A stretch of DNA of 21,510 nt. Source: a virus. This document shows, piece by piece, positions 1 through 18,690 of the stretch. The notes under the pieces were generated by a model. The model did not search any database. It saw only the letters and a program-made list of their open reading frames with translations, and was not told where the DNA came from. The translations under genes were made by a program, and so were the position numbers. Positions within the stretch are counted from its first letter, which is position 1; each line of letters starts with the position of its first letter. The DNA is taken from the IMG/VR virus record IMGVR_UViG_3300010400_000137, positions 1 to 21,510 of that record. The stretch is one strand, 5' to 3'.

Positions 1-292
1 CCAATGCCTGCGGGGTGCCATACCAACTCCCCGCCCCGCCGCGGGTGATGGGAAACAGCCGCTCGGGCGCAATCTGGAGCTCCGTGCGCAGCTTCGTCAG
101 CCACGGCAGCCAGTAGAGCACCTCGAAGCCCACTTCGCCCCGCCACGGCCCGACTAGAATCGGCCGTGTGGTGGTGCGAATGGCCTTACAGAGGCTGCGA
201 AACTGCTGCTGCCGGCGGACGGACTGCGCCCACTGCCACCAGCCGTTCAGCGTCGCTCCAGTCCTCTTCAGTGTCGACGGCGAACCCTTCAT
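1..292 (-). CDS. Hypothetical protein with GPWRGEVGFE motif (partial, 3' end outside window)
   Basis: The reading frame is open from an ATG at 290-292 to the left edge, giving 97 residues with the C-terminus missing. A purine-rich GGAGGG lies just upstream of the ATG, with very short spacing. The visible N-terminus is helical and Trp/Gln/Arg-rich, followed by GPWRGEVGFEVLYWLPWL, a strongly patterned segment that I recall from uncharacterised phage and polysaccharide-locus proteins, but I cannot name a family. It overlaps the upstream cytidylyltransferase gene by 107 bases, far longer than the four-base overlaps typical here. No ATG, GTG or TTG in this frame lies closer to the motif, so this start is the best available. 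Its position at the end of the sugar cassette suggests a glycan-related role, which is inference only. Confidence 0.6.
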   Translation of the reverse strand, partial: MKGSPSTLKRTGATLNGWWQWAQSVRRQQQFRSLCKAIRTTTRPILVGPWRGEVGFEVLYWLPWLTKLRTELQIAPERLFPITRGGAGSWYGTPQAL

Positions 293-905
293 GACCCTCC
301 GTGAAAAACGGCGCGATTTTCGTCCCACTGATGGTGTTGTAACTGCTCACGACGTAGGTCCACGCCATCTCGAGCGAACTGTTCTGCACGTAGACCGTGG
401 GGAGCGTCTGCGTCGGCCGGGAATGCCACGGCGTGACCCCGAGGTCGCTCGCCATGAACGGTTTCATAGGGTAGCCCGGACCGTCCCACGTCCACATCTT
501 CCCCGGATGTTCCTTCACCGGCTGCACGGCCCTGATGGAATGCACTTCGCTGCGCTTGAACTGCGTGAACGCGCGCTGGATGGTGGCTGCGGTGCGAAAC
601 GGCGACGTCGGCCGGAGAATCGCGAACGCCTCTGACTGACACCTCGGGAGGGCATCACGCACCCAGAAGATGTCCGGCTGATCATCCGGCACCGGTGGCC
701 GCACCATCGTCTGAATGCCCATCGCCCGCGCGATGTTCCATGCTGTATCGTCATCGGTGCAGCAGTAGATGGCCGAGAACACGCCGCTCTCCTGCGCGGC
801 GGCGATCGTCCACGCGAGCAACGGAGTGCCCCCAAGCAGACGGGTGTTCTTCCCCGGACAACGTTTCGAGCCAGCACGCGCCGGGATGAGAGCGACGATG
901 TTCAC
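186..905 (-). CDS. neuA: CMP-nonulosonate (acylneuraminate) cytidylyltransferase, NeuA-like
   Basis: This family activates a sialic-type nonulosonic acid with CTP, giving the CMP-sugar used by glycosyltransferases in the cytoplasm. The 239-residue protein opens with the signature IPARAGSKRCPGKN (residues 7-20), which binds the nucleotide. It has LRPTSPFR at 97-104, a YVQNSSLE segment near 172 and a terminal AVDTEEDW acidic motif typical of NeuA/PseF-type enzymes. The length is normal for a single-domain enzyme. The start is GTG and overlaps the cupin stop as GTGA. NeuB lies two genes upstream, so a nonulosonate pathway is well supported. The exact sugar (neuraminate, legionaminate, pseudaminate or Kdo-like) cannot be told from sequence alone. 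Confidence 0.85.
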   Translation of the reverse strand: MNIVALIPARAGSKRCPGKNTRLLGGTPLLAWTIAAAQESGVFSAIYCCTDDDTAWNIARAMGIQTMVRPPVPDDQPDIFWVRDALPRCQSEAFAILRPTSPFRTAATIQRAFTQFKRSEVHSIRAVQPVKEHPGKMWTWDGPGYPMKPFMASDLGVTPWHSRPTQTLPTVYVQNSSLEMAWTYVVSSYNTISGTKIAPFFTEGHEGFAVDTEEDWSDAERLVAVGAVRPPAAAVSQPL

Positions 906-1252: not shown

Positions 1253-1632
1253 CGCAGCCGCAACCCCGACGGCACCGGAATGGCCAACACGATGTAGGAA
1301 AACGGCGTGCTCGGCAGACTGGTCTGCCCACCACTCGACGCCGTCAGCGTCAACGTGTGCGACCCGCCAGGAATGGTCGACGCCGGCACCGAGCACGTCT
1401 GAAACGCCGTGGCACAGGCCGCGAGCGTCCCGGTCCCCGCGACACAGGTCACGTTCGGTAGCGGGCCCGGCTGCGTCGTGCCGTCGACGTTCAACGTGTA
1501 GGTGATGATGACCGACACGGGCGCGCAGGCATCCCACGCCAACACGGTGGATGGCCCGACGATGACCGGCGTCTGCGCCGACACCGGCACAGCGAGCACC
1601 AACATCCCAATCAGAATCCTAATGATACGCAT
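1249..1632 (-). CDS. Exported Ig/fibronectin-III-like small protein
   Basis: A 127-residue protein with a clear signal peptide: two arginines and a hydrophobic stretch (residues 2-16) ending in VSA before Gln20, fitting signal peptidase I. The mature part is rich in Thr, Ser, Val and Pro, with alternating beta-strand character and a TIPGGSHTLTLTASS segment, resembling an Ig-like or fibronectin type III fold. Four cysteines (36, 63, 73, 80) could form two disulfides after export. AGGAGAG lies seven bases before the ATG. It overlaps neuB by 14 bases and the cupin by ATGA, so it is expressed with the sugar genes. The function is unknown; an envelope or virion-surface role is inferred. Confidence 0.7.
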   Translation of the reverse strand: MRIIRILIGMLVLAVPVSAQTPVIVGPSTVLAWDACAPVSVIITYTLNVDGTTQPGPLPNVTCVAGTGTLAACATAFQTCSVPASTIPGGSHTLTLTASSGGQTSLPSTPFSYIVLAIPVPSGLRLR

Positions 1633-2551
1633 GCAGCATCTCTCCTGTGACTCGAGGCCCGAGTGGGGTATCCACTCGGCGCATCTTCGATAGCGGGCGC
1701 AGTTCGCTGGGATAGACCCGCTTCACTCCGTCCCCGGTGGCAATCCGTGCCCGATCCAGATCCCGACAGAGCTTCTTCAAGCCCGCCGGCTCCAGGCTGA
1801 ACGCATGGTCCGTGCCTTTACTCGCCCGATTGAGCGTGAAGTGCTGCTCCAGAATCCGCGCGCCCATCGCATAGGCCAACAGACTCATCGCAATGCCCGA
1901 GACGTGCCCCGACCAGCCGATCACCACCTCCGGATACCGCGCCCGCATCTCCACGATCGCCATCAGGTTCAATTCAGCGTAATCGTGGACCGGGTAGGCC
2001 GCCGTGCAATGGAGGAGCGCGAAATGCGCCCCCAGCCCCGTCAGCAGGTCCACTGCGCTATCGACGTCGTGCCAATCACTCCCACCGGTAGAGACGATCA
2101 TCGGCTTGCCCAGGCTGGCGAGGTGCCGGAGCAGGCGAGAATCCGTCAGGCCGCTCGAGGCCACCTTGAACGCCGGAATCCCCACGTTGAGCAGGAAGTC
2201 TGCAGATGTTTCATCAAACGCCGTCGCGAAGAAGTCAATCGAGGCGGTCTGAGCCACGGCCCGGCAGGCGAGATACTCCCGGCTGCCGAATTCCAGCGCT
2301 TTCCGGTGCTGGCCGTAGGTCTTCCCGAAGCTGTGCTCATGCTCATACGGGGTGGCGAGCATGGCTTTGGTATAGAGCGTGTCAATCTCCCGCTTCTGGA
2401 GCTTCGCCGCATGGGCTCCGCACGCCGCAGCGGTCTGGATCATCGTGCGCGCGGTGTCGAAGCTGCCCCCATGGTTGTTGCCGATTTCCGCGATGACGTA
2501 GGCCGGTTCATCCTCGGCAATGCGCCGGGTGCCGATAATCAGCTCGCGCAT
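1619..2551 (-). CDS. neuB: NeuB-like nonulosonic acid synthase lacking the SAF domain
   Basis: NeuB enzymes condense an N-acetylated hexosamine derivative with phosphoenolpyruvate to form a nonulosonic acid. The 310-residue protein has the family TIM-barrel motifs in order: AEIGNNHGG (21-29), KLQKREIDTLY (50-60), AFKVASSGL (127-135), STGGSD (154-159), LLHCTAAYP (179-187), IGWSGH (211-216) and EQHFTLNR with KGTDHAFSLEP (235-255). Usual family members are about 345 residues and end in an antifreeze-like SAF domain; here the protein stops soon after the barrel and that domain is absent. The start at 2549-2551 has GGAG upstream; a longer reading would only extend into the preceding gene, which it already overlaps by 13 bases. 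Confidence 0.85.
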   Translation of the reverse strand: MRELIIGTRRIAEDEPAYVIAEIGNNHGGSFDTARTMIQTAAACGAHAAKLQKREIDTLYTKAMLATPYEHEHSFGKTYGQHRKALEFGSREYLACRAVAQTASIDFFATAFDETSADFLLNVGIPAFKVASSGLTDSRLLRHLASLGKPMIVSTGGSDWHDVDSAVDLLTGLGAHFALLHCTAAYPVHDYAELNLMAIVEMRARYPEVVIGWSGHVSGIAMSLLAYAMGARILEQHFTLNRASKGTDHAFSLEPAGLKKLCRDLDRARIATGDGVKRVYPSELRPLSKMRRVDTPLGPRVTGEMLHAYH

Positions 2552-3420
2552 GGCATCTCCGCACGGAGCGCATTCAGGAGACGCGGCCAGCCACCGTGCC
2601 CCTGTGCCTGCACCGAATCGGGAAACTCCGGCCACGCCATCATCGTGGTGATGTCGTAGAGCACGAAACTGGGTGAATCCTCATCCGTGTTCGTGATCAA
2701 GGGCACCCCACGTTCCCGCACCGCCCACGCCGTGGTGTTGTTCGCTCTCAGCGCCGGATCGTAGAAGGCCGCGCACGCCGTCGCCGCCCGAATCTCACGG
2801 TCCAGAGCGACGTCTGAGAGGTAGCCGAGTAACTCCACATGATCAGCACCGAATAGCCCCCGCAGAGTCGTAGCCGCGCCCTCCAAGGCCGCATCCCATG
2901 GCGTCCCTTCATGGACGCCCGTCGAAACCAAGATGGTGTAGGGCTCGCCATGGGCGTCTAGCAGGGCTTTCAACTTCTGGTAGTGCGGACTGACCAGTTT
3001 GTGCGCCATCCCGAAGGTGAGCACGGTCAGATTCGCGCGCGGTGGCGGCGTCTCAATCGTGCTCGGACACCACGCTTCGATGACATCGGGGCGATACTGC
3101 CGCAGTTCGCGCGCAATCACCGCATTCGCGGCATAGACCCGCATCGGGTGGTTCTGCCGCCACCACTGATAGAGCCCGTTGCCGGTGGGCACGTCATGGA
3201 GGAACAGATCGAAGCACTCCCAGCGCGGTCGGAGCCGTTGCAGGGGCCGTTCCGCGCACTTGATGGAGACCAGCGGGTGCCGATAGTGCCAGCCGTCCAG
3301 TAGGGAGGCGAACGGCACCCCGAGTTCCCGCGCCAGGCGGATGTTCCACTTCGCCACCCCGCAGGTGTACGGGTTGGTGTGGTAACTCAGGACGGCGTCA
3401 ACCACGTGGCCGTTTCCCAT
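2539..3420 (-). CDS. Glycosyltransferase-like protein (putative)
   Basis: A 293-residue protein without a decisive motif. The N-terminus has SYHTNPYTCGVAKWN and LGVPFASLLDG, reminiscent of the first Rossmann-like half of GT-B glycosyltransferases. The middle has a strand-like LTVLTFGMAHKLV and YTILVSTGVHEGTP, and the C-terminal half has LLGYLSD and ANNTTAWAVRERGVPLITNTDEDSP, which looks like the donor-binding half where a glycosyltransferase reads a capped or changed sugar-nucleotide site. It lies directly upstream of neuB with a 13-base overlap. The start ATG at 3418-3420 has only a weak ribosome site, and an in-frame GTG five codons in is an alternative. The assignment rests on pattern and context. 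Confidence 0.55.
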   Translation of the reverse strand: MGNGHVVDAVLSYHTNPYTCGVAKWNIRLARELGVPFASLLDGWHYRHPLVSIKCAERPLQRLRPRWECFDLFLHDVPTGNGLYQWWRQNHPMRVYAANAVIARELRQYRPDVIEAWCPSTIETPPPRANLTVLTFGMAHKLVSPHYQKLKALLDAHGEPYTILVSTGVHEGTPWDAALEGAATTLRGLFGADHVELLGYLSDVALDREIRAATACAAFYDPALRANNTTAWAVRERGVPLITNTDEDSPSFVLYDITTMMAWPEFPDSVQAQGHGGWPRLLNALRAEMPCAS

Positions 3421-6431: not shown

Positions 6432-6830
6432 CTACACACCCTCCAAGACGGCCAGGAGGTCATCCTCTGGCAGTAACAGATACCGTTCACCATCGACCAC
6501 GAGTTCTTGCCCGCTCTGCCATGAGAACATGACGAAATCGCCCACCTGCACGACGGGTTCACGGGCGACGAGTTCACGGAGCAGCACGGCTGCTGATGTC
6601 GTGTCGTCATATTCGACGCAGCAAGCCGGGATCAGTGCTTCTCTCGCCGTTTCCACCCTCAGCGCGAGCGCTTCCGCTTCCTGTTTCCGAGGATGCGTCA
6701 GTGTCCCGATGGCCACTACCGTGCCTGTCTGGTCGGGTTTCTTGTCTTCCTGCAGCCACAGCCCGCTTTCGGTGCGGTCCTGGGCCGCTTCCGGCTTGAT
6801 GAGGATGCGGTTGCCGAGCGGACGCAGCAT
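6432..6830 (-). CDS. Phage GroES-like co-chaperonin with enlarged roof region
   Basis: Co-chaperonins cap the GroEL chamber during folding of client proteins, and phage versions such as T4 gp31 serve capsid folding. The 132-residue protein begins RPLGNRILIKPE (3-14), has a mobile-loop-like segment ESGLWLQEDKK (21-31) in which LWL matches the hydrophobic GroEL contact of GroES, then TGTVVAIG (35-42), and ends VQVGDFVMFSW with LLLPEDDLLAVLE (94-130), all typical of Cpn10. Residues 43-92 replace the short roof hairpin of GroES with about 50 mostly helical residues, making it about 35 longer than usual. Its start overlaps the upstream stop as TGATG. Confidence 0.8.
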   Translation of the reverse strand: MLRPLGNRILIKPEAAQDRTESGLWLQEDKKPDQTGTVVAIGTLTHPRKQEAEALALRVETAREALIPACCVEYDDTTSAAVLLRELVAREPVVQVGDFVMFSWQSGQELVVDGERYLLLPEDDLLAVLEGV

Positions 6831-14410: not shown

Positions 14411-14716
14411 CTACGCCGCTTTCCGATACGTGTATTGGCGAATCGGGCCTTCCCGCAGCACCTTGCCGGCCGCCGCCAGCTTCCCGAGCGCCGTGCTGGT
14501 ATCCGCCGTCGGACAGCCCATCGCTTCGGCAATCGCTCGCGCCGTGCGGGGTTCCGTCGTCACCGCCCGGAGCACTTTCGCCTGCCGATACGGTTTCTTA
14601 CCTTTCGCTTCGGGTGCCCAGCGTTCAATCAGGTGCGGACGCCAGACCTGTGCCGGATAGTGCGGCACTGGCCAGGTGATTTCCATATCGCGTTTACAGC
14701 CACAGGGACAGATCAT
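14411..14716 (-). CDS. CPCGC zinc-knuckle plus winged-helix protein
   Basis: A 101-residue protein. The N-terminus is CPCGCKRDMEITW, a Cys-rich knuckle, followed by a linker and a winged helix-turn-helix: KVLRAVTTEPRTARAIAEAM, then TSTALGKLAAAGKVLREG and a wing ending RQYTYR. Such domains bind DNA or sense state in MarR/ArsR-like folds. The ATG at 14714-14716 overlaps the C5 methyltransferase stop as ATGA. It may regulate or assist DNA processing. Confidence 0.65.
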   Translation of the reverse strand: MICPCGCKRDMEITWPVPHYPAQVWRPHLIERWAPEAKGKKPYRQAKVLRAVTTEPRTARAIAEAMGCPTADTSTALGKLAAAGKVLREGPIRQYTYRKAA

Positions 14717-15897
14717 GCTGTTATGTGCCTTTCTGCTTCGAGGATGCGCCGTGCGATCCATTCCGCGATCTGCGGGACGATCGCGTTGCCCAAGCCGCGC
14801 AAACGGTCCACCCGAGCGGATACCCCATGAGCCACTCGACCCACGTCGGGTTCAACGCGCCACTGTTCGGATGCTCTGACTTGATCGCTGAATGCAACGT
14901 ATCCAAAGACCCGCGATGCCTCCCGCTGTCGTATTCCGCTCGAGGTGTCGGCCACTGATGCACCACGCGCCCGAGCAGTCCGTTTGCCGGCACGTTCGCG
15001 CAGCTCTGCGCCGTCCCATCCTTGTGATCCCGACTCGTCGGAGTCGGCCAGAGCTGCACCGCCATCGCGAGTGGAGTTCCACATCCATTGCCGTTCTGAT
15101 GTGTGGCTTTGAGCCGAGCTCGCCGTGCCAGCCAAGTGTCCGGCTTCTCGCCCAACTGCATCACGCTCGCATCCGGGGTAGGCCACGATCCAGACTCGGT
15201 CTCTGCGGTGAGGGGCGCCAAAGGCACTCGCCGGTACGCAGTCCCACTCCGCGTCATACCCGCACGCGGCCAGGTCCCGGAGAACATTGCCAAAGAACCG
15301 TCCAGCCTCGGCTGACAGAAGTCCTGGGACGTTTTCGGCAACCACCCATCGGGGCCGAGCCTCGCGAATAATTCGGGCGAACTCGGGCCAGAGATCGCGC
15401 TCGTCGGTAGATCCGCCGCGTCGACCAGCCAGGGAGTGCGGCTGACAGGGAAAGCCTCCGCAAATAACGTCAACTGGGGCGAGACAGTGGGAGCAGCCAT
15501 CGGCTCCTGTATCACAGCGTCGGCCAGATTCGCGCCGTAGAGCATCGTGCCCGCTTTGTTCGTGCGCCGCCCCTGCGGGTCCAACGTGCGCGGCCCGCCG
15601 GTCACATCCGACGTGCGCGGTGTCGGCCACATGCGTCGTTCGGACATCCTCGTAGCGCCTCACGTCCGGCCAGTGTTTCGCGAGCACCGCCCGACAAAAC
15701 TGGTCAATTTCAACTTGCCAGCGAATCTCAAAGCCTGCCCGTTCGAATCCCAGATCGAACCCGCCAATACCTGAAAACAACGATCCGACGGTCAGCGTGC
15801 GTCCGGTGTGTCCGAGGTCCACCTGTGCCCTTCCTGTTTCCTCCCCACCAGCCAGTAGGCTCCGGACGCACGTATCTGGAATGGTCACGTCAGACAT
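14713..15897 (-). CDS. C5-cytosine DNA methyltransferase
   Basis: A 394-residue enzyme that methylates cytosine C5 in DNA. Motif I is SLFSGIGGFDLGFERAG (39-55), motif IV GGFPCQPHSLAG with nucleophile Cys151, motif VI ENV (188-190), motif VIII FGAPHRRDRVWIVA, and the end is RVDRLRGLGNAIVPQIAEWI, motifs IX-X. An extra segment of about 50 residues lies between YEDVR (82-86) and motif IV and has poor protein-like composition. The ATG at 15895-15897 overlaps the zinc-knuckle gene by three bases. A second long frame overlaps residues 84 to the end. It may protect phage DNA from host restriction; no partner restriction enzyme is evident. Confidence 0.88.
   Translation of the reverse strand: MSDVTIPDTCVRSLLAGGEETGRAQVDLGHTGRTLTVGSLFSGIGGFDLGFERAGFEIRWQVEIDQFCRAVLAKHWPDVRRYEDVRTTHVADTAHVGCDRRAAHVGPAGAAHEQSGHDALRRESGRRCDTGADGCSHCLAPVDVICGGFPCQPHSLAGRRGGSTDERDLWPEFARIIREARPRWVVAENVPGLLSAEAGRFFGNVLRDLAACGYDAEWDCVPASAFGAPHRRDRVWIVAYPGCERDAVGREAGHLAGTASSAQSHTSERQWMWNSTRDGGAALADSDESGSQGWDGAELRERAGKRTARARGASVADTSSGIRQREASRVFGYVAFSDQVRASEQWRVEPDVGRVAHGVSARVDRLRGLGNAIVPQIAEWIARRILEAERHITA
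14721..15647 (-). CDS. Overprinted ORF with repeated WPTP motifs, in +1 frame of the C5 methyltransferase
   Basis: A 308-codon ORF entirely inside the methyltransferase gene on the same strand. An in-frame TGA lies five codons before its ATG, and GAGG lies upstream. It has WPTP at residues 7, 155, 200 and 232, FSGTWPRAGMTRSGTAYR (122-139), WPTPTSRDHKDG (200-211) and LNPTWVEWLMGYPLGWT (265-281). These match my memory of a recurrent family of phage hypothetical proteins. Each VADT/LADS-type segment of the methyltransferase becomes WPTP in this frame. It may be a genuine second gene, a frameshift product or a conserved shadow; I cannot decide from one sequence. Confidence 0.45.
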   Translation of the reverse strand: MSERRMWPTPRTSDVTGGPRTLDPQGRRTNKAGTMLYGANLADAVIQEPMAAPTVSPQLTLFAEAFPVSRTPWLVDAADLPTSAISGPSSPELFARLGPDGWLPKTSQDFCQPRLDGSLAMFSGTWPRAGMTRSGTAYRRVPLAPLTAETESGSWPTPDASVMQLGEKPDTWLARRARLKATHQNGNGCGTPLAMAVQLWPTPTSRDHKDGTAQSCANVPANGLLGRVVHQWPTPRAEYDSGRHRGSLDTLHSAIKSEHPNSGALNPTWVEWLMGYPLGWTVCAAWATRSSRRSRNGSHGASSKQKGT

Positions 15898-16072
15898 AGC
15901 CGCGACCACCGCATTCTTCACACTCGCGCCAATTGCGATCCTGCGGTTCGCCGTCTTTGTAGAGGCATGGGCAACTGTCCTCCATGCAGTCGTGATACCC
16001 GCCTTCACCGTGACAGGCCCAGCAACACTCCGCATCATCATCCGGCTCAAGGTCGATGTATTCGCCGTTCAT
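15890..16072 (-). CDS. DnaJ-type zinc-knuckle small protein
   Basis: A 60-residue Cys-rich protein: CCWACHGEGGYHDC and CPC, then CEECGGRGYV at the end, resembling the CxxCxGxG repeats of DnaJ zinc centres. The acidic N-terminus is MNGEYIDLEPDDD. The ATG at 16070-16072 overlaps the preceding stop as ATGA. Its end overlaps the methyltransferase start by eight bases. The role is unknown; proteins with such repeats often assist nucleic-acid-binding or folding partners. Confidence 0.6.
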   Translation of the reverse strand: MNGEYIDLEPDDDAECCWACHGEGGYHDCMEDSCPCLYKDGEPQDRNWRECEECGGRGYV

Positions 16073-18003: not shown

Positions 18004-18690
18004 TTACGCCACTTCCAGCGGTAAGGCTTCCTGCCGTAAACGACGGGCGGCAATCTCGCAGTAGCGCTCTTCCAGTTCGATGCCGATGGCTCTGCGCCCG
18101 AGACGCTTCGCGGCTGCCAATGTGGTGCCGCTGCCCATGAACGGATCGAGAATCAGATCTCCGGCATCGCTGAACTGTGCGACCCATTCCAGCAGCAACG
18201 ATTCCGGCTTCCCTGTCGGGTGGTAGCCCTGCACCTTGTTGTGAATCCACACCGCCGGATAGCCGCCACCGTTCCAGCGCATCTTGCCGCTGACGCCTGC
18301 ATGGAGAATCGCGACGGCTTCCCAGCCCTGCGCCGGTCGGTCTCCTGTGAACTGCGGAGCACCATTCGGCTTCACCCATGCTCCATGGCGCACGAACCGC
18401 CACCCGGCCGGAGGTGATTGCTTCAGCGGCAAGACGTGTTGCCAGTCGATCGTGAGAATGGCCCACCGCTTCAACCGGATCGGCGCGAGCATGGCCGCGA
18501 TCTTCGCCGCCTCCGTCGAAGCGAAGTCCACCAACACTGATTGCCCGCTCCCGGTGCGTGCGCCTTCGTGTGTTTCCTCACCGTAGGGCGGATCGGTCAT
18601 CACATGGTCGACAGGTCCGAGCGTGGTAATTACCTCCCGGCAATCCCCGTGGTAAATGACGATTCCGCCGTGTTCGTAATACGGCGTCAC
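18004..18690 (-). CDS. N6-adenine/N4-cytosine DNA methyltransferase (beta-type)
   Basis: A 228-residue enzyme of the N6/N4 family that methylates exocyclic amines in DNA. TDPPYG (32-37) is the catalytic motif IV, followed by GSGQSVLVDF and, near the C-terminus, LILDPFMGSGTTLAAAKRLGRRAIGIELEERY (motif I and the strand 2 acidic end), so the order is IV then I, as in the beta group. The start is GTG, overlapping the HNH stop as GTGA. It lies between two HNH-type genes. Whether adenine or cytosine is the target cannot be seen. Confidence 0.85.
   Translation of the reverse strand: MTPYYEHGGIVIYHGDCREVITTLGPVDHVMTDPPYGEETHEGARTGSGQSVLVDFASTEAAKIAAMLAPIRLKRWAILTIDWQHVLPLKQSPPAGWRFVRHGAWVKPNGAPQFTGDRPAQGWEAVAILHAGVSGKMRWNGGGYPAVWIHNKVQGYHPTGKPESLLLEWVAQFSDAGDLILDPFMGSGTTLAAAKRLGRRAIGIELEERYCEIAARRLRQEALPLEVA

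Follow-up and report, generated by a model that had tools for sequence, protein, structure and literature searches.

Most C5-cytosine DNA methyltransferases are single chains, with two exceptions, M.AquI and M.EcoHK31I (PMC3404938). In M.EcoHK31I, the larger subunit holds motifs I-VIII and X, and motif IX is located on a smaller polypeptide; the predicted target-recognition domain (TRD) was placed in the alpha subunit, leaving only motif IX to the small one (PMC3404938). In M.AquI, the large subunit comprises motifs I-VIII, and the small subunit includes the distal variable region together with motifs IX-X (PMC3404938).

The window analysed here is a whole virus record of 21.5 kb (IMGVR_UViG_3300010400_000137; 21,510 nucleotides), in which phage-like neighbours were observed, including a terminase, a portal protein and a replication initiation protein. 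A Chaperonin-10 (GroES-like) protein (6432-6830, minus strand; PF00166, E 5.3e-16) is encoded with structural genes nearby, and a second DNA methyltransferase of the N6/N4 type (18004-18690, minus strand; PF01555, E 7.2e-28) is located upstream of the C5 gene. Additionally, a NeuB-family gene (1619-2635, minus strand; PF03102, E 2.6e-67) was identified near a cytidylyltransferase gene (186-905, minus strand; PF02348, E 1.7e-16), and this pair is possibly a phage-borne nonulosonic/sialic-acid-type sugar pathway.

Judging from its sequence, one stretch of this phage DNA very likely holds the genes for the two subunits of a heterodimeric C5-cytosine DNA methyltransferase, with the DNA-target recognition part most likely carried by the shifted frame. 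The frames, called alpha (frame 0) and beta (+1), have the following features in the window:

14713-16050, minus strand: alpha ORF, C5-cytosine DNA methyltransferase, motifs I-VIII and X (PF00145, E 7.8e-45; phrog_363, E 3.1e-79)
16050, minus strand: TTG, merely the earliest possible start of the alpha ORF
15822 (GTG, with GGAGGAAACAGGAAGG before it) or 15897 (ATG), minus strand: likely starts of alpha
15760-15783, minus strand: alpha motif I, SLFSGIGG
14721-15647, minus strand: beta ORF from ATG to stop, 308 codons, wholly within alpha in the +1 frame (phrog_1008, E 5.1e-31; synonymous-permutation test)
15475-15633, minus strand: extra alpha segment ahead of motif IV, facing the beta N-terminal WPTP unit
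15618-15629, minus strand: WPTP motif 1 of beta, alpha frame opposite VADTA
15480-15500, minus strand: alternative beta start ATG (CAGGAGCCGATG), AGGAG 3 nt upstream, ahead of the conserved QLTLF segment
15442-15459, minus strand: alpha motif IV including the catalytic Cys, GGFPCQ
15322-15336, minus strand: alpha motif VI, ENV
15178-15219, minus strand: alpha motif VIII, GAPHRRDRVWIVAY
15174-15185, minus strand: WPTP motif 2 of beta, alpha frame opposite VAYPG
14857-15177, minus strand: putative WPTP-repeat target-recognition segment of beta, where alpha appears to be weakly constrained filler (segment test)
15039-15050, minus strand: WPTP motif 3 of beta, alpha frame opposite LADSD
14943-14954, minus strand: WPTP motif 4 of beta, alpha frame opposite VADTS
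14805-14855, minus strand: motif IX-like segment of beta, LNPTWVEWLMGYPLGWT, where alpha reads VGRVAHGVSARVDR (segment test; profile match to in-frame motif IX, E 5.2e-11)
14770-14796, minus strand: alpha motif X, GLGNAIVPQ

The alpha frame possesses motifs I, IV (PCQ), VI (ENV) and VIII of the PF00145 family. Motifs IX and X, which belong in one chain in that family, are divided here, with X in alpha and IX (LNPTWVEWLMGYPLGWT) in the beta frame. The first-pass annotation had assigned all C5 methyltransferase motifs to one frame; no canonical motif IX was recognisable in the alpha frame of the window, and the full set is obtained only when alpha and beta are combined. The same annotation was accurate in describing a second same-strand frame with its own ATG, four WPTP motifs and the motif IX-like segment, which was confirmed at 14721-15647 with an in-frame TGA immediately upstream of the ATG at 15647 and a GAGG ahead of it. 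Its pairing of each WPTP with a VADT/LADS-type segment is borne out by the alpha readings VADTA, VAYPG, LADSD and VADTS.

Two starts are possible for the window beta, 15647 and 15500. The beginning M...QLTLF, equivalent to the start at 15500, is common to many homologues, and the start at 15647 adds an N-terminal WPTP unit that faces the odd insertion in alpha. In the closest relatives (L012 and L014), an extra alpha segment was also observed before motif IV, with a WPTP or WSTP unit of beta at that place; on the evidence of very few loci, this fits the earlier idea that beta was the selected frame there. The beta protein had no match in Pfam or NCBIfam. By profile match it belongs to PHROG 1008 (E 5.1e-31), labelled 'DNA methyltransferase', a label silent on this being the non-catalytic half and on its usual overprinting.

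For the permutation test, the methyltransferase protein was held fixed, its synonymous codons were permuted, and the +1 frame was rescored as beta. Of 2000 permutations made for the window, 14 left the second frame open. The actual beta frame scored 256.7 bits with a profile built without the window, whereas the permuted versions averaged 83.5 and peaked at 131.2. Beta and methyltransferase matches coincided on the same DNA, with beta always in +1, in ten annotated phage and plasmid loci that range in GC from 0.40 to 0.66 and whose beta proteins are about 25-40% identical. In a larger set of 171 loci, retrieved through their resemblance to beta from annotated records, bacterial genomes and viral contigs, the methyltransferase ORF was overlapped by beta in the +1 phase in every locus (171/171), and the +1 frame exceeded all 60 synonymous permutations, again in 171/171. 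To avoid selection on beta, 80 viral loci were fetched by methyltransferase alignment alone. The beta score of the +1 frame exceeded all 60 permutations in 80/80 of these, and the longest open stretch of the +2 frame was above the null in 0/80. Permuted sequences in both sets still averaged about 50 bits on the beta profile.

The earlier annotation had named stops in the +1 frame of most homologues as the finding that would speak against dual coding; between motifs IV and VIII, this frame was open in 78/78 methyltransferase-selected loci, with 5.0 expected. Over the same motifs, +2 stops in the nested clade occurred at the expected level. Openness of the +1 frame from IV to VIII was also found in 18 of 36 single-chain enzymes (4.4 expected) and in 6 of 22 split ones (1.5 expected). 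The excess over the catalytic domain of single-chain enzymes (L252, L258, L265-L290), where no beta is needed, may be either a relic of a nested past or a codon-context effect.

Codon choice in alpha showed a similar lock. The conserved Gly facing the beta MG was GGG in 73/73 methyltransferase-selected loci, compared with 17% of N-domain Gly codons, and a conserved Ala was GCT in 61/61, compared with 20%; methyltransferase-selected loci were used for these counts, and counts at WLMG in motif-chosen loci are partly circular. Furthermore, a Shine-Dalgarno (SD) motif preceded the first beta-frame ATG in 56% of 214 nested loci versus 12% of 259 control ATGs taken from other frames of the same region, and the SD-preceded beta starts were positioned at or near the beginning of the conserved domain.

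The frame under selection was located by a segment test on about 150 non-redundant loci, in which the protein of one frame was fixed, synonymous codons were resampled and the other frame was scored with cross-validated profiles. Before motif VIII, the excess was 1.21 bits per residue for alpha and 0.39 for beta. Between VIII and IX, alpha fell to 0.05 and beta reached 0.48, which suggests that what alpha reads from VIII to X results largely from the need to encode beta. At motif IX the values were 0.64 for alpha and 2.52 for beta. Profile excess in the N-terminal segment of beta was rejected as proof of coding, since single-chain and classic enzymes exceed the null there too, and the openness and SD signals were therefore used for that part. 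From these sequence tests, the second frame very probably constitutes a gene, and the permutation, segment, openness and codon results together strongly support the earlier claim of true dual coding in phages.

The identity of beta becomes clearer from relatives that are encoded in one frame or as two genes. ShiLan gp70 and Hamulus gp68 from mycobacteriophages and Spartoi gp40 from a Rothia phage contain motifs I-VIII, PTP repeats, the segment xLxxxFxEWMMGxPxGW and motif X in a single frame, and the repeats of these actinophage single-chain enzymes are the same LPTP repeats as those of beta. The beta profile matches all three in frame (E 5.6e-13 for ShiLan gp70, 2.4e-14 for Hamulus gp68 and 1.4e-10 for Spartoi gp40). 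In profile-profile comparison, the beta segment LNPTWVEWLMGFPxGWT aligns with the single-chain EWMMG segment (E 5.2e-11), which was placed at motif IX because PF00145 covers residues 3-321 of the 324 of Spartoi gp40. Classic motif IX in other phage enzymes fits the same reading, such as RKLTPRECWRLQGFP in L263.

Two separate genes, the second in +1, encode the catalytic half and the half containing PTP repeats, IX and X in Rebeuca (gp80/gp79) and Abidatro (gp40/gp41). In phrog_1008, the nested beta proteins are grouped with gp79 of the split pair (6e-72) and with the Hamulus gp68 C-terminal half (4e-80). For Abidatro gp41 (L259:2129-2842), the open +1 frame extends upstream with a conserved WPTSGMTRNGEAYEL inside gp40, so that the true start probably lies upstream of the annotated one. 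The search proposed earlier, for WPTP/WVEWLMG proteins free of an overprinted methyltransferase, thus recovered them as the C-terminal half of single-chain enzymes, in the same frame, or as a separate downstream gene. These in-frame or separate +1 counterparts in actinophages indicate that beta is the target-recognition/motif IX half, so that of the earlier suggestion of a partner or an antagonist, the partner is retained and the antagonist is not. Single-chain, split and nested loci encode between 0 and 7 strict [WL][PA]TP units per protein, at a spacing of about 30-36 residues, as if the putative target-recognition segment were modular.

The predicted structure of a single-chain relative (L268; pTM 0.70) superposes end to end on M.HhaI, with Z 21.8 over 231 residues and model positions 1-346 placed on HhaI 15-326. 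The IX-X part of this model has pLDDT values mostly of 83-95. The PTP-repeat stretch is below 50, and its role in DNA reading is therefore proposed from where it lies, after VIII and before IX. AlphaFold produced no confident fold for beta by itself (pLDDT 59, pTM 0.30), which might be expected for a partner-dependent subunit, and the beta profile retrieved nothing from PDB sequences up to E 10.

In the arrangement we propose, alpha would form the core that binds S-adenosylmethionine and carries out catalysis (motifs I-VIII and the C-terminal X), and beta, translated from its own start, would supply the WPTP-repeat target-recognition segment and motif IX. The two would assemble into one active methyltransferase, which may methylate phage DNA and thereby protect it from host restriction. 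Translation of beta, its binding to alpha, the need for both in activity and the protective role are all predictions made from comparison of genes.

An untranslated second frame, arising from methyltransferase residues and codon bias, would account for the partial resemblance of the +1 frame of any C5 catalytic domain, single-chain and classic enzymes included, to the N-terminal half of beta, and for the roughly 50 bits kept on average by permuted sequences. It would leave unaccounted for the loss of the match upon permutation in all 80 unbiased loci, the GGG and GCT codon lock and the SD enrichment before beta starts. Moreover, from VIII to IX the unconstrained frame is that of the methyltransferase, and the conserved segment lies in frame in the enzymes of other phages; we regard such a by-product as exceedingly unlikely. 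An artefact of the antisense or shadow ORF type was also considered and rejected.

Programmed ribosomal frameshifting out of alpha, yielding one chimeric chain with I-VIII, TRD and IX, agrees with the constant +1 phase (227/227 nested loci) and with the evolutionary frame changes that do occur, as in L168 and L024. However, nested loci keep motif X in the alpha frame, so that a chain made by one shift would be missing it. SD-preceded beta starts also lie close to or at the beginning of the domain, and frameshifting is given only a slim chance. A beta that regulates or antagonises the methyltransferase, or acts as an anti-restriction protein, instead of being a subunit, would be compatible with its extra N-terminal part, which has no assigned role. 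The conserved C-terminal half of beta nevertheless corresponds to the TRD-motif IX part of single-chain enzymes, and alpha has no recognisable motif IX, which makes this reading very improbable. The preferred reading is thus the heterodimer with beta as its recognition half.

Classified loci comprised 227 nested layouts (all in +1), 37 single-chain and 23 split (21 in +1). The motif patterns used were strict, so some of the 38 loci assigned to 'no IX' and 'other' would also be nested. In an unrooted catalytic-domain tree, one supported clade held the single-chain and split enzymes of actinophages, with the nested genes elsewhere; in this sample, nesting is the rule outside one actinophage clade. 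According to record titles, genome matches came from Actinomycetota, Bacillota, Pseudomonadota, Acidobacteriota, Chloroflexota, Spirochaetota, Verrucomicrobiota and others. Within a single class, beta was matched at E 1e-20 in 8 of 274 genomes, the centre genome included, and part of these matches cover the unspecific N-terminal part of beta alone.

Gene callers permit one frame, and records accordingly name alpha, beta or both. Tadhana is annotated in both frames, Sc-Yong805-2 for beta only (as 'hypothetical protein') and mycobacteriophage Spikelee for alpha only; in such records, beta is often called 'hypothetical protein' or 'DNA methyltransferase'. Several loci showed unusual arrangements. 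EBPR siphovirus 2 gp44 (L007:1036-3531), a methyltransferase that also has a nested +1 frame, contains an intein-like insertion right after the Pro-Cys of motif IV (..CPCFPAGALVLTKRGYVEIQHV...VHNCQPF). In L014/L211 (same contig) and L153, motifs I-VI are located in the beta frame and the remainder of alpha in the other frame, through either a natural frame swap or an assembly indel. Frame fusions were observed in L168 (2625-3608), with motif IX in the alpha frame, and in L024 (2968-3840), with motif X in the beta frame. Additionally, one Roseovarius chromosome record contains five near-identical copies of the nested locus (L111-L115), which suggests several related prophages.

A broader proposal, which we hold tentatively and rate somewhat below an even chance, is that a large phage and prophage clade of C5 enzymes, spanning many bacterial phyla, obligately overprints its DNA-recognition subunit (~200-300 codons) in the catalytic gene. 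The move between frames, including the gain of a new N-terminal beta segment over the catalytic domain, could then be traced from single-chain, split and nested relatives, and different or multiple specificities might follow from the varying number of WPTP units. With three layouts in one family, the origin of the nested gene is directly testable. Few same-strand overlaps are both this long and conserved across great distances. Cloning alpha alone to find the specificity would probably give no activity, and the putative recognition half offers a handle on how phages change their methylation specificity.

Compared with the known systems, the single-chain enzymes ShiLan gp70, Hamulus gp68 and Spartoi gp40 are homologous to the window pair and differ in being one protein in one frame. 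The M.AquI layout, with I-VIII on the large subunit and the distal variable region and IX on the small one, is that of Rebeuca gp80/gp79 and Abidatro gp40/gp41. Rebeuca gp80/gp79 also follows the M.AquI type in that motif X is carried by the smaller subunit and the genes overlap only in part; in the window, by contrast, motif X is on alpha and beta is fully nested.

The small-subunit gene of M.EcoHK31I reportedly lies inside the large-subunit gene in an alternative frame, and M.EaeI is said to have a similar layout. The window beta gene is likewise nested in alpha in another frame, and the two systems share a large subunit with I-VIII and X but without IX, which is on the small subunit. By this likeness of layout, the window pair would match M.EcoHK31I in type. 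The two differ in that the TRD of M.EcoHK31I was predicted in the large subunit, whereas the frame selected over the TRD in the window is beta, and in that the loci described here include phages. A literature search for nested methyltransferase subunits in phages returned no description among the papers covered. The breadth of the arrangement, 227 nested loci, all in +1, in phages and many bacterial phyla, appears to be new, and so do the fixed phase, the placing of the TRD in the overprinted frame and the occurrence of single, split and nested layouts side by side within a family.
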